A stretch of 45,976 nucleotides of DNA from Deltaproteobacteria bacterium (GTDB taxonomy: Bacteria; Desulfobacterota; Binatia; DP-6): positions 1 to 45,976 of the forward strand of contig VBKF01000150.1 of assembly GCA_005888095.1 (NCBI GenBank), read 5' to 3'. Positions within the stretch are counted from its first letter, which is position 1. Each line of letters starts with the position of its first letter. This document shows positions 23,583 to 29,397 of the stretch, one piece after another. Below the pieces are notes generated by a model. The model was not told where the DNA came from. It made no database searches and saw only the letters and a program-made list of their open reading frames with translations. The position numbers and the translations under genes are program-made.

Positions 23583-24806
23583 CTACGCGCGGACGGCGCG
23601 CGCGCCGGGGATCGGCAGCCGCACGCAGAGGTGCGCGCCGCTGCCGGAGGTGATGCTTGCGCTGCCCCCGAGCGCCCGCACCCGCTCGCGAATGCCGATC
23701 AAGCCCGTCCCCAGCTCACCGTTCTTGCGCTTGGGCGCCAGGCCGACGCCGTCGTCCTCCACCTCGAGGCGGAGCTCGCCGTCCATCGCCGTGAGCGCCA
23801 CCCGCACGTGACGGGCACCCGCGTGCCGGACGACGTTGGTGAGCGCCTCCTGCGTGATCCGGTAGACCGCGGTCTCGATGTCCGCGGGCAGCCGCTCCGG
23901 CACACCATCGGCGGTGAAGGTCGCCACGATCCCGTGGCGCTCGGTGAACTCCTTCACCTGCGAATCGAGCGACGGGAGGAGCCCGTAGTCGTCGAGCGCG
24001 GAAGGCCGCAGGCCCTGCGACAGCTCGCGCATCTCGGCGATCGTCTTGGCGACGAGCCGGCGGGCGTCGGCCGCGCGGCTCCGCAGCATCCCCAGGTCCT
24101 CGGGACGCTGGCGGTCGAAGAGCCAGAGGTACGAGAGGATGGCCGTCAGCGAGGAGCCGAGCTCCTCGTGCAGCTCGCGCGACACCCGGCGCCGCTCCTC
24201 CTCGTGCACCGTCATGAGGCGCGTCGAGAGGGCCGCGAGCTCGTCCTGCCGCTGCGCCAGGCTCGTCCGGAAGCGCTCGATCACTCGCGCGCTCGCCGCG
24301 GCCGTCACCACGCCGGCGACGAGCGATCCGATGGCGAGCCCGAAGGGCGCCCCCGGCAAGCCGCGCGAGGACAGGATCGCGCTGACCAGCGCGAAGCCCA
24401 CGCACATCATCGCCCCGACGAGGACCGTGCGTCGCGTACGCCACGAGTAGAGCGCCGCGCTCCCCATGAGGAGGCAGGTCAGCAGGTTGGCCACGATCGC
24501 AGGATAGGTTGGCGTGGCGTACGGCTTGACGTACAGGTAGACGAGCAGGTCGGACGTGAGCCCGAGAACGAAGAGCAGGCTCAGCCGCTCGGCGTAGCGC
24601 GTGCCGAGCGAGGTGTAGGTGGCGAGCAGCACGGCGGCCCCGAGGGCGACCGCGAGGCCATAGAACGGCAAGACCTTGAGCAGCGCCCGCGGCTCCAGGT
24701 AGTGCACCAGGAGCGGCACGAACAACAGAGTAGAGAGCGCCAGCAGGGCGGCGAGCCGGAGCTGCGGCCGCGGCGTGAGATCGGCGCCGTGGCGTTCGTC
24801 CGCCAT
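23583..24806 (-). CDS. NarL-family membrane sensor histidine kinase
   Basis: 407 residues. About six membrane helices fill residues 17-172 (for example AALLALSTLLFVPLLVHYL, FYGLAVALGAAVLLATY, AMMCVGFALVSAILS) with only short loops, so the stimulus is sensed in the membrane. The HisKA_3 motif follows with H213 in RVSRELHEELGSSLTAI, then the HATPase domain (ETAVYRITQEALTNVVRHAG, VEDDGVGL, GTGLIGIRERVRALGG), a complete set of the NarX/LiaS type. It is divergent from the receiver at 24928 with 121 bases between. NarL-type kinases usually pair with a receiver plus HTH, which is absent here, so the DNA-binding partner must be elsewhere. Confidence 0.92.
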   Translation of the reverse strand: MADERHGADLTPRPQLRLAALLALSTLLFVPLLVHYLEPRALLKVLPFYGLAVALGAAVLLATYTSLGTRYAERLSLLFVLGLTSDLLVYLYVKPYATPTYPAIVANLLTCLLMGSAALYSWRTRRTVLVGAMMCVGFALVSAILSSRGLPGAPFGLAIGSLVAGVVTAAASARVIERFRTSLAQRQDELAALSTRLMTVHEEERRRVSRELHEELGSSLTAILSYLWLFDRQRPEDLGMLRSRAADARRLVAKTIAEMRELSQGLRPSALDDYGLLPSLDSQVKEFTERHGIVATFTADGVPERLPADIETAVYRITQEALTNVVRHAGARHVRVALTAMDGELRLEVEDDGVGLAPKRKNGELGTGLIGIRERVRALGGSASITSGSGAHLCVRLPIPGARAVRA

Positions 24807-24927
24807 GTGGGCCGCCTTTATGGCCCTCCGGGCACGGACGCAAGTACCGTCCTATTCCCCAAAAGCCGTGATGCCGTTGCCCCCAGGCACCGTTGGTGCT
24901 ATCCGGAAGCGGCGGTTGGGTAGGAGA

Positions 24928-25308
24928 ATGGGGCCGTCGCCCGCGCTCGCACGTCGGGTCCTCATCGTCGAAGACAACCCGGATAACCGGTTGGCGCTCC
25001 GGACCCTCCTCGAGCTCTGGGGCTACGTCGTGGAGGAGGCGCAGGACGGTGCGGGGGCGATTCAGGTGTTCCTGGAACGTCGCCCCGAGATCGCCCTCGT
25101 CGACATCGGGCTCCCGGGCCTCAACGGCTACGAGGTGGCGAAGCAAATGCGGTCGACGCCGGGCGGCAAACCGTTCCTGGTCGCCCTGACGGGCTACGGG
25201 CGGACCGACGACCGCCGCAAGGCCCTCGACGCCGGCTTCGACGCGCACCTGGTCAAGCCGGTCGACCCCGACGAGCTCGAGCGCCTGCTCGCCGCCGCCC
25301 CTGCGTGA
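24928..25308 (+). CDS. Single-domain response regulator
   Basis: A 126-residue receiver without output domain. ED at 15-16 in VLIVEDNPDNRLALRTLLEL, phosphoacceptor D59 in IALVDIGLPGLNGYEVAKQM, T88 in VALTGYG and K110 in HLVKPVDPDELE. The sequence is of the type often fused behind hybrid kinases. The ATG at 24928 has a GGAG ribosome site and was chosen over the frame opening at 24775. Divergent from the NarL-type kinase and followed after 16 bases by the radical SAM gene, with which it is probably co-transcribed. Confidence 0.88.
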   Translation: MGPSPALARRVLIVEDNPDNRLALRTLLELWGYVVEEAQDGAGAIQVFLERRPEIALVDIGLPGLNGYEVAKQMRSTPGGKPFLVALTGYGRTDDRRKALDAGFDAHLVKPVDPDELERLLAAAPA

Positions 25309-25324
25309 TCGCGATACGGGGTTC

Positions 25325-26194
25325 GTGAGCCTGGTCCTGACCGAAGCGCGGGTGTCGCGCGTGCTCACGCGGACCTCGGGCTTCCTGCGGACCGTCAGCT
25401 CGCACTCGCTCCAGCCCTACCGCGGCTGCACGTTCGGCGGGACGCTCTGCGGCGTCGGCTGCTACGTGCAGCACAACCGCTGGGTCACCCGCGGCGCGCC
25501 GTGGGGCGGCTTCCTCGAGGTCCGGACGAACGCCGCGGACGCCTATCGCGAGCAGTACGACGCCGAGCGAGCCTGGGCCCGGCGTTCGCGGGATGGCTTC
25601 ACGATCTTCCTCTCGAGCTCCACCGAACCCTTTCTCCCGCAGGAGGACCGCTTCGGCGTCACGCGGCGAGTCCTCGAGGCGATGTGCGAGCGGGCGCCCG
25701 ACGGGCTCATCATCCAGACTCACACGGACCGCGTGACGCGCTACCTCGATCTCTACCCACCGCTTGCCGCCGCGACCAGTCTCCGCTTCCACATCTCCAT
25801 CGAGAGCGACCGTGACCGCCTGCCCGGCCTGCCGCCGCCTGCGAGCTCCGTCGCGCACCGGCTGGAGGCCGCGGCAGCGCTGCGCGCCGCCGGCCTCCGC
25901 GTGGTGATCACCGTGTCCCCGCTCCTGCCGATCGCCGAGCCCCGCCGCTTCTTCGAGCGCCTGGCCGAGGTCGCCGATGCCGTCGTCGTCGACCACTTCA
26001 TCGAAGGCGACGGCACGCCCGGCGGCGCGCGGACGCTTGCCACGCCGCTGCCGGAGGCCATGGCGCGGGTGGAGCCGGCATCGGTGCGGCTCGACTACCG
26101 GGATCGGATGGTTGCCGTCGCGGAGGAGGTGATGCCGGGGCGGGTCAGCGTGTCCGTCGACGGCTTTGCCGGGCGTTTCCGTCCGGCGCGCTGA
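25325..26194 (+). CDS. SplB-like radical SAM protein with CX6CX3C motif
   Basis: 289-residue radical SAM protein related to the spore photoproduct lyase group. The cluster motif is atypical: C35, C42 and C46 in GCTFGGTLCGVGCYVQ, spaced CX6CX3C instead of CX3CX2C. Downstream, GFTIFLSSSTEPFLPQE, LIIQTHTDRVTRYLDL, RFHISIESDRDRLPGLPPPA and VVITVSPLLPI follow the SplB-like barrel. The SAM-contact (E in IESD) region is retained. The organism shows no sporulation genes here, so DNA repair is not assumed; radical SAM members of this group occur in non-spore-formers with unknown substrates. The start is GTG at 25325, right after the receiver gene. Confidence 0.8.
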   Translation: MSLVLTEARVSRVLTRTSGFLRTVSSHSLQPYRGCTFGGTLCGVGCYVQHNRWVTRGAPWGGFLEVRTNAADAYREQYDAERAWARRSRDGFTIFLSSSTEPFLPQEDRFGVTRRVLEAMCERAPDGLIIQTHTDRVTRYLDLYPPLAAATSLRFHISIESDRDRLPGLPPPASSVAHRLEAAAALRAAGLRVVITVSPLLPIAEPRRFFERLAEVADAVVVDHFIEGDGTPGGARTLATPLPEAMARVEPASVRLDYRDRMVAVAEEVMPGRVSVSVDGFAGRFRPAR

Positions 26195-26214
26195 CGCCGA
26201 CTCGGCGGGTGGTC

Positions 26215-26243
26215 TTGGCAGGGTCCGGCTGTGCAAGTATAGT
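26215..26243 (+). promoter_or_regulatory. Strong sigma-70-like promoter of the PIN locus
   Basis: TTGGCA (26215-26220) and TATAGT (26238-26243) are separated by 17 bases. The expected transcription start lies 4-5 bases before the ATG at 26254, so the mRNA would be nearly leaderless. The stretch 26237-26254 has an unusually AT-rich, iterated AGTA pattern for this genome, possibly an operator for the first gene product. Confidence 0.7.
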
Positions 26244-26253
26244 AGAGTAAAGT

Positions 26254-26979
26254 ATGAGGAAAACCAAGGACGAGTGGTCCCACATCCGACAGCGATATCT
26301 CCAGGGTCTCGAATCCACGGGTCTCCGGCTGACGCTTCGCGACCGGACATGGGCGTGCACCGAGAGCGGGCATTGGGTCGCGCTTCCGGGAGGGACCGCC
26401 ACGAAAGATCCCGACCACTGGTGGCTCTGCTACGACCGCGAGGCGTTCCAGCGGCGTAACGCGCTGGGAGCGATCCTCCTCTGCATGAGCCCCGACGGCT
26501 CTTGGCTCGACTTCGGCCTTGCGGCCGCCGTCCTGCGAGAGATCGAATCCCGCCTGCCCGTGGGCCGCGCTCGCCCGCAGCTCAACCTCAACGTGTTCCG
26601 GCGCGGGAGCCGCTTCGAGCTGCAGCTGACGGGTGGCCATGCCCCGCTCGACATCACGAGCCGACGCGGCGATCTGTCGTGGCTCGCCGGTCGGGAGCAC
26701 GCCGGGATGGTGGCCGAGCGTCCTGCCCCGGTCTCCGAGCCCGCACCGGCCAACCCGGAGTCTCGCTTCTTCGCAAAGGTCACGAAGGGGACGCTGAGAC
26801 CGCTCGATCCGGTCGATCTCGCGGCGGACGGCGTCTACGTGGTGCACGCCCGGAAGGTGGGTGCGGCGCCGGCGAGCGCATCGCTCCGTCGCATCCTCGC
26901 ACGCGGGGGGCCCGCCGACCTGCCGCCCGACTTCGCCGAGCAGCACGACCACTACGCCCACGGAGCGCCCAAGCGGTGA
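26254..26979 (+). CDS. Hypothetical partner of a PIN-domain protein (candidate antitoxin)
   Basis: 241 residues, unfamiliar. Visible features are a basic N-terminus (MRKTKDEWSHIRQRYLQGLE), a Trp/Cys-rich segment (TWACTESGHWVALPGG, PDHWWLCYDREAFQRR), a beta-rich centre with RPQLNLNVFRRG and FELQLTGGHAPLDITSRRG, and a proline-rich hinge before the C-terminal LRPLDPVDLAADGVYVVHAR. No ribbon-helix-helix, AbrB or Phd signature could be seen. The gene has its own strong promoter and its TGA overlaps the GTG of a PIN-domain gene, the layout of a toxin-antitoxin pair, though it is much longer than usual antitoxins. Function inferred from position only. Confidence 0.7.
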   Translation: MRKTKDEWSHIRQRYLQGLESTGLRLTLRDRTWACTESGHWVALPGGTATKDPDHWWLCYDREAFQRRNALGAILLCMSPDGSWLDFGLAAAVLREIESRLPVGRARPQLNLNVFRRGSRFELQLTGGHAPLDITSRRGDLSWLAGREHAGMVAERPAPVSEPAPANPESRFFAKVTKGTLRPLDPVDLAADGVYVVHARKVGAAPASASLRRILARGGPADLPPDFAEQHDHYAHGAPKR

Positions 26980-27383
26980 GCCGTGCCGCGTTCCTCGACA
27001 CGCTGCACATCCTCGCGCTGGTGAACCCGCGGGACGCATGGCACGCAAAGGCCGTCGAGCTCTCGCATCGCTGGCGTGGTCGGCTCGTCACGACCGAGGC
27101 CGTGCTCACGGAGGTCGCGGACGCCCTTTCCCGGCGGCCCTACCGGGCCTGGGCGGTAGAGGCGATCGAGGACCTCCGAGCGGATCCGAACGTCGCGTGC
27201 ATCACGGTCGACCCTCGCCTGTTCTCGCGGGGATTCGATCTCTACCGCGAACGAGCGGACAAGGACTGGAGCCTGACGGACTGCATCTCCTTCGTCGTCA
27301 TGCGAGACCGCAAGCTCGGCGACGCTCTCACTGCCGATGTTCACTTCGTGCAAGCGGGGTTCCGCGCGCTCCTGAGAGAGTAG
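26976..27383 (+). CDS. PIN-domain ribonuclease (VapC-like toxin)
   Basis: 135-residue PIN domain. The four acidic metal-binding positions are visible: D8 in AAFLDTLHIL, E in TTEAVLTEVADAL (residues 41-46), D102 in WSLTDCISFVVM and D121 in ALTADVHFVQAGF. The C-terminal SLTDCISF...TADVHF pattern is typical of type II toxins that cleave RNA. Translation starts at GTG inside the stop of the preceding gene (GTGA), which ensures coupled synthesis with the candidate partner. The cut RNA target is unknown. Confidence 0.88.
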   Translation: MSRAAFLDTLHILALVNPRDAWHAKAVELSHRWRGRLVTTEAVLTEVADALSRRPYRAWAVEAIEDLRADPNVACITVDPRLFSRGFDLYRERADKDWSLTDCISFVVMRDRKLGDALTADVHFVQAGFRALLRE

Positions 27384-27435
27384 GCGGCCTCCCGAAGCTT
27401 GCACGTGACGGGTGGCCCCACTACAGAGGACTCCC

Positions 27436-29397
<1,962 letters not shown>

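Follow-up and report, generated by a model that had tools for sequence, protein, structure and literature searches.

Within the window analyzed here (the whole stretch of DNA, 45,976 nucleotides long), a gene for a 241-residue protein is followed directly by a gene for a PIN-domain protein (Table 1). As the open reading frames are read, the stop codon of the first gene and the start codon of the second share four bases, GTGA, and this overlap lies exactly where the original prediction had placed it.

Table 1. Features of the two-gene locus, in window coordinates.
Feature	Position	Strand	Remarks
Segment lacking from this site in congeners G001 and G002	26197..27385 (26190-27387 by the G002 alignment)		
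Sigma-70-like promoter TTGGCA-17-TATAGT, putative	26215..26243	+	TTGGCA 26215-26220, N17, TATAGT 26238-26243
AGTA x4, period 5, candidate operator	26236..26254	+	Overlaps the -10 box and the A of the ATG
Composite antitoxin gene (ORF1)	26254..26979	+	ATG start, 241 aa; relatives in G006 and G002
N-terminal extra domain	26254..26706	+	Residues ~1-151; weak models show it as beta-rich; outside known families
AF2212-like part, probable	26761..26895	+	About residues 170-214; from alignment with L008, suggestive only
VapB-type C-terminal tail, presumed toxin-blocking	26896..26976	+	Residues 215-241; profile matches and tail pattern
PIN-domain (VapC-type) toxin gene	26976..27383	+	GTG start, 135 aa

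The 135-residue protein matches the Pfam PIN family (PF01850) with an E value of 1.5e-6 and a score of 29.2 bits (cut-off 23.6), and its acidic quartet (D8, E46, D102, and D121) is invariant in a four-row PIN alignment, which bears out its description as a PIN domain with all acidic residues in place. Its only sequence relatives among PDB entries were two VapC20 chains, found with E values of 8.5e-6 for the single sequence and 1.7e-11 for the four-row profile. The likeness to VapC20 (5wzf and 5wz4, named as a 23S rRNA-specific endonuclease) is one of PIN homology, in which the four acidic positions align with acidic residues of chain 5wzf; the window protein is nevertheless a distant relative, as the single-sequence E value indicates.

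Upstream of the pair, the TTGGCA-N17-TATAGT site is the sole sigma-70-like match within positions 24900-27900. Because shuffled sequences already average 0.2 matches (standard deviation, 0.4), the match is modest when taken alone. The site, which had been called an excellent promoter, is nevertheless aptly placed. Ten bases (26244-26253) separate the -10 box from the ATG, and a near-leaderless antitoxin transcript is plausible. The iterated AGTA boxes were confirmed as four tandem copies, an array that occurs once in the whole window and in none of 100 window shuffles, and they remain a candidate operator. A fused antitoxin related to that of the window, in the congener G002, likewise has three copies of ATGT with a period of five shortly upstream of its gene (L010 3974-3987). 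Among the 16 upstream regions examined, only these two had at least three period-5 copies, and no such run was seen upstream of the 14 other antitoxins examined from the wider VapC set described below. Thus, period-5 boxes are present in both fused cases that can be read (2/2), the third, in genome G006, being cut off on its 5' side. The box sequences themselves (AGTA and ATGT) are not alike between the two relatives, which we count against the interpretation favored below; such differing boxes are what a co-evolving repressor and operator might show. The promoter scan of the G002 upstream region gave no forward sigma-70-like match.

The pair is missing from the corresponding site in two congeners, G001 and G002. 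The flanks align with 81-91% identity, and the insert is replaced by 9 bases in G001 and by 15 bases in G002, where the radical-SAM-like gene directly adjoins the downstream acetyl-CoA-synthetase-like gene in both genomes (these flanking genes were named by eye, and the radical-SAM-like gene has a sub-threshold Pfam match). Since two congeners have the site without the pair, the two genes came or went as one unit of ~1.19 kb, and for the same reason we rejected the idea of the pair as a long-standing occupant of the site. G002 has its own copy of the pair at another site. The GC content at third codon positions (GC3) is 0.835 and 0.838 in the antitoxin and toxin genes, compared with 0.91 and 0.966 in their neighbors.

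Relatives of the 241-residue protein were found in 3 of the 98 genomes searched (its own and related genomes), namely its own, G002, and G006, all within one family, and the three fused pairs occupy three different gene contexts. In G006, the fused gene enters from the contig end without its 5' end and is followed by a PIN gene whose GTG overlaps its stop codon. The G002 copy is in two pieces: contig C36 closes with the N-terminal one, and contig C430 opens with the C-terminal one, which is followed by an overlapping PIN gene; these are probably one gene split by the assembly. The order of antitoxin and then PIN gene is therefore found in all three genomes with relatives. A scan of genome contigs from 84,980 species with N-terminal patterns returned two relatives among 214 matched stretches, and these were the G006 and G002 contigs. 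No match to the window protein was obtained in plasmid and phage records at an E value of 1 or in viral contigs.

The PIN toxins belong to a larger set within the class, in which a PIN profile gave 29 matches at an E value of ≤1e-15 in 24 of 145 genomes. Of the 26 matches outside the fused loci, 25 have a neighboring open reading frame whose end is no more than 20 bases away from the match; in the other case (L059), the frame ends 24 bases before the match and does not look like an antitoxin. The front parts of the antitoxins in this set vary, with AF2212-like, MazE-like (L069, E value 0.0005, below the cut-off), weak ribbon-helix-helix (RHH; L066, E value 0.11), and other small types among them, as read from Pfam runs on 10 of the 26 non-fused antitoxins. 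Some are large (309 aa in L062, 307 aa in L063, 303 aa in L068, and 281 aa in L064), and that of L060 would measure 257 aa from its first TTG versus 148 aa from its ATG. The antitoxins of L062 (572-1498), L063 (1905-2825), and L068 (1905-2813) have long front parts that look alike, and they lie beside PIN toxins of the same family. They represent a second large-antitoxin architecture; those of L062 and L063 have no Pfam match. In L064 (712-1554), a T5orf172-like domain (E value 0.0017, just under the Pfam cut-off), which we take to be of the GIY-YIG type, is fused to the tail ahead of a PIN toxin.

What most of these antitoxins have in common is the end of the protein. The last ~30 residues of the 241-residue protein (DLPPDFAEQHDHYAHG) correspond to a VapB tail shared by other antitoxins of the same VapC family. 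A pattern written for this tail is present in 20 of 30 antitoxins (the 26 above, L008, and the three fused ones), whereas 500 shuffles gave 1.8 on average and never more than 6, a comparison that serves only as a guide because the pattern was written after the tails had been seen. The pattern is present in 17 of 27 when the fused antitoxins are left out and in 18 of a subset of 24 (six left out); it is absent from L056, L059, L062, L067, L071, L072, L073, L075, L079, and L080, which weighs against the interpretation favored below. A profile of the fused C-termini only (~72 residues), run against 21 antitoxins, matched L008 (2.7e-7), L063 (1.3e-4), L066 (9.4e-4), L069 (0.0021), L058 (0.005), L057 (0.0061), and L070 (0.03), and the best of 379 decoys reached 0.62. 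There is thus good evidence, by sequence similarity, that the tail is of the VapB type. The 241-residue protein had been said to match no antitoxin type. The statement is borne out by the direct Pfam scan and is true of the first ~150 residues, but not of the C-terminal tail, which is that of other VapB antitoxins. Because of this tail, we interpret the protein as a composite VapB-type antitoxin rather than as the wholly new antitoxin family that had been suggested, and we reject the notion that it is unrelated to known antitoxins throughout.

The identity of the ~40 residues preceding the tail depends on one bridging sequence. Searching 297 genomes of the phylum with the whole-protein alignment led to genome G300, with an E value of 5.7e-4 for that genome, in which a 76-residue antitoxin (L008) overlaps a PIN gene; this antitoxin is 32% identical to the fused C-terminus over the whole module, and its PIN partner is 50% identical to the window toxin. 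With L008 alone as the query, the three fused C-termini are recovered at E values between 4.3e-6 and 5.7e-4, and L008 is close to three short antitoxins that had been found via their PIN genes (L056-L058; 5.5e-11 to 2e-6). Two of these pass the Pfam AF2212-like cut-off of 21.6 bits (L056 with 23.7 and L057 with 29.1), and L008 (18.5) and L058 (19.7) lie below it. The AF2212-like family (COG2880/DUF104) is described as a predicted AbrB-like antitoxin family linked to PIN genes (PMC2701414). A profile of the four short antitoxins, searched against 380 window open reading frames (the antitoxin frame among them) and the three fused proteins, retrieved the fused C-termini at 3.6e-6, 3.5e-5, and 1.7e-4, with the best decoy at 6.9. 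Without L008, the fused proteins still rank first, but only at 0.69, 0.83, and 1.5, and L008 itself had been found through its similarity to the fused proteins. When the last 27 residues were cut from the fused-only profile, nothing significant was left. The top two matches were then L058 (0.5) and L057 (0.86), both AF2212-like antitoxins, which is suggestive only, given a best decoy of 1.2. Direct Pfam scans of the 241-residue protein and of its last 74 residues gave no AF2212-like match, and the full protein had no Pfam match of any kind. In a search of PDB sequences, the module profile that includes L008 had AF_2212 (2nwt) as its sole match, with an E value of 0.062; the fused-only profile did not find AF_2212, its sole match being an unrelated dehydrogenase (0.61). 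Within the class, matches to the C-terminal profile with L008 were obtained in 8 of 145 genomes, three of them the fused ones. The residues before the tail are therefore only probably AF2212-like, because the label rests on L008, itself close to L056-L058.

Compared with the VapBC systems that have short AF2212-like (COG2880/DUF104, PF01954) antitoxins (L008 and L056-L058), the window pair likewise has the antitoxin first, a homologous tail, and, in the case of L008, a PIN protein that is half identical. It differs in that those antitoxins are 76-83 aa long from their ATG, whereas the window antitoxin, at 241 aa, has an extra N-terminal domain of ~150 aa and an AF2212-like part that is only weakly recognizable.

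Searches of Pfam, NCBIfam, PHROGs, PADLOC, and PDB sequences yielded nothing credible for this N-terminal domain (~150 residues). AlphaFold2 models built from three sequences were beta-rich and weak, with mean pLDDT values of 55.5 and 57.1. The best fold match of the full model was a fungal lectin (Z 3.9, rmsd 3.6, 103 aligned) and that of the domain model a sliding clamp (Z 3.3, rmsd 4.3, 86 aligned), and Foldseek returned nothing at an E value of ≤0.001 in the PDB or, for the domain model, in the viral library. The models are too weak either to assign or to exclude any fold. All three fused relatives keep the domain, in which blocks such as WVALPG and WWL are invariant, and it was also found outside the fusions in three other genomes of the phylum (G371, 7.9e-7; G459, 1.1e-25; G642, 1.2e-38), where it forms the C-terminal half of a protein of 220-221 aa. 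No adjoining PIN gene was seen in the 7-10 kb around these three genes. Because the domain occurs in these ~220-residue proteins without an adjacent PIN gene, we regard it as a separate module grafted onto the antitoxin. A lack of linkage between the upstream protein and PIN genes elsewhere had been named as a refutation of the original prediction; the linkage is complete for the fused protein (3/3 genomes) but does not extend to the domain on its own in the three other genomes. In the class search, none of 148 genomes apart from the three fused ones passed an E value of 0.001; only G371 of 12 genomes matched in its class, and 2 of 244 matched in the class of G459. Among the weaker matches, at E values of 0.0027 to 0.1, a good part contain stop codons. 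Of eleven plasmid records matched by tblastn to the G006 domain (E values of 1 to 10), three were realigned and the open reading frames of two were read; the matches in these were rejected as short pieces in unrelated frames, and the low E values of the realignments stem from searching a single locus.

The toxin-antitoxin reading proposed for the pair is supported by its recurring gene order in three of three genomes, by its discrete insertion relative to two congeners, and by a VapC set in which, in nearly every case (25/26), an open reading frame ends 20 bases or fewer from the PIN match. Features of VapBC systems are present in the two-gene order with the antitoxin first, the PIN protein with its acidic quartet, and the tail common to the antitoxins of related VapC proteins. 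A role of the 241-residue protein as an effector or targeting partner, with the PIN protein as a processing nuclease, would fit the large N-terminal domain that matches no known family; the VapB-type tail, the short-antitoxin counterpart L008, and the gain or loss as a unit all speak against this, and we consider it highly improbable.

Starting from the gene order, its recurrence, the tail homology, and the insertion as a unit, all established here, we favor, with a probability of roughly 70%, a mobile VapBC-type module whose composite antitoxin comprises a blocking tail, an AF2212-like repressor part, and a signal-gated N-terminal domain. By analogy with their families, (i) the PIN protein would be a metal-dependent RNase toxin; (ii) the C-terminal tail of the antitoxin would fold into the active-site groove of the PIN protein and block it; and (iii) the part before the tail, probably AF2212-like and of the AbrB superfamily, would dimerize, bind the AGTA boxes, and repress the operon, the AF2212-like label being a weakly supported element of this scheme. 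The GTGA overlap would couple translation of the toxin to that of the antitoxin. Finally, in the least-supported step, the N-terminal domain may make the stability or grip of the antitoxin dependent on a signal, either a ligand or a partner, which would free the toxin. This explanation draws on three genomes, one of them with the 5' end of the gene missing (G006) and one with the gene split over two contigs (G002).

The role of the N-terminal domain is where the readings diverge. That the pair is an ordinary VapBC module for addiction or stress, with a domain that merely aids folding, dimerization, or stability of the antitoxin and senses nothing, is a serious possibility, if short of an even chance. 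Gene order, tail, and mobility are all as in ordinary VapBC systems, and conservation is lower in the N-terminal part (43% identity to G006) than in the C-terminal part (57-60%) and the PIN proteins (66 and 67%); set against this, the domain is retained in all three relatives, down to its invariant blocks, and exists in proteins of its own in three genomes. Since it is retained in the relatives and present in separate proteins elsewhere, the domain probably has a function of its own.

A defensive role, in which the domain would recognize either a phage product or a modified nucleic acid and unleash the PIN RNase in abortive infection, appears unlikely. It would suit the surroundings of two of the three standalone domain genes, where RelE-like pairs and a transposase were named by eye in G459 and a MazE-like and PIN pair in G371, and it would suit the repeated appearance, within this VapC set, of large antitoxins whose front parts are of other kinds, but none of the five proteins scanned (antitoxin, toxin, and three relatives) matched PADLOC-DB, and phage records, plasmids, and viral contigs held no credible match. 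These surroundings were read at L096 770-2159 and 2354-3460 and at L097 7739-8396 (genes named by eye), and the MazE-like and PIN pair of G371 is ~2.3 kb from the domain gene.

Returning to the composite VapBC-type module, we tentatively suggest that the N-terminal domain is an undescribed sensor of a cellular or phage signal that would loosen the VapB-type tail from the PIN RNase, and that this VapC family, with several front domains (the N-terminal domain, the ~300-aa type, and the T5orf172-like domain) on one tail, might be a plug-in sensor VapBC family; we consider this somewhat unlikely as it stands. The neutralizing tail of the VapC family is suggested as a portable part that has been fitted with unrelated front domains. 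How chromosomal VapBC systems are triggered has long been an open question, and a VapB carrying a large, separate module that is also found in proteins of its own would give a direct handle on that trigger. Among the matches listed in literature searches on DUF104/AF2212-like antitoxins and on VapBC systems with extra, sensor, or modular domains, no such fusion appeared in the titles or abstract openings. The nearest parallel in design is PanA and other modular antitoxins, which are built of separable neutralization and other domains (PMC10440598). In contrast to these, the accessory domain of the window antitoxin is N-terminal to a VapB-type tail and lies outside known families, with no Pfam family matched.

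Elsewhere in the window, a histidine-kinase-like gene on the reverse strand (23583-24806) lies next to a divergent, lone receiver-domain-like gene on the forward strand (24775-25308), both recognized by eye from their translations.
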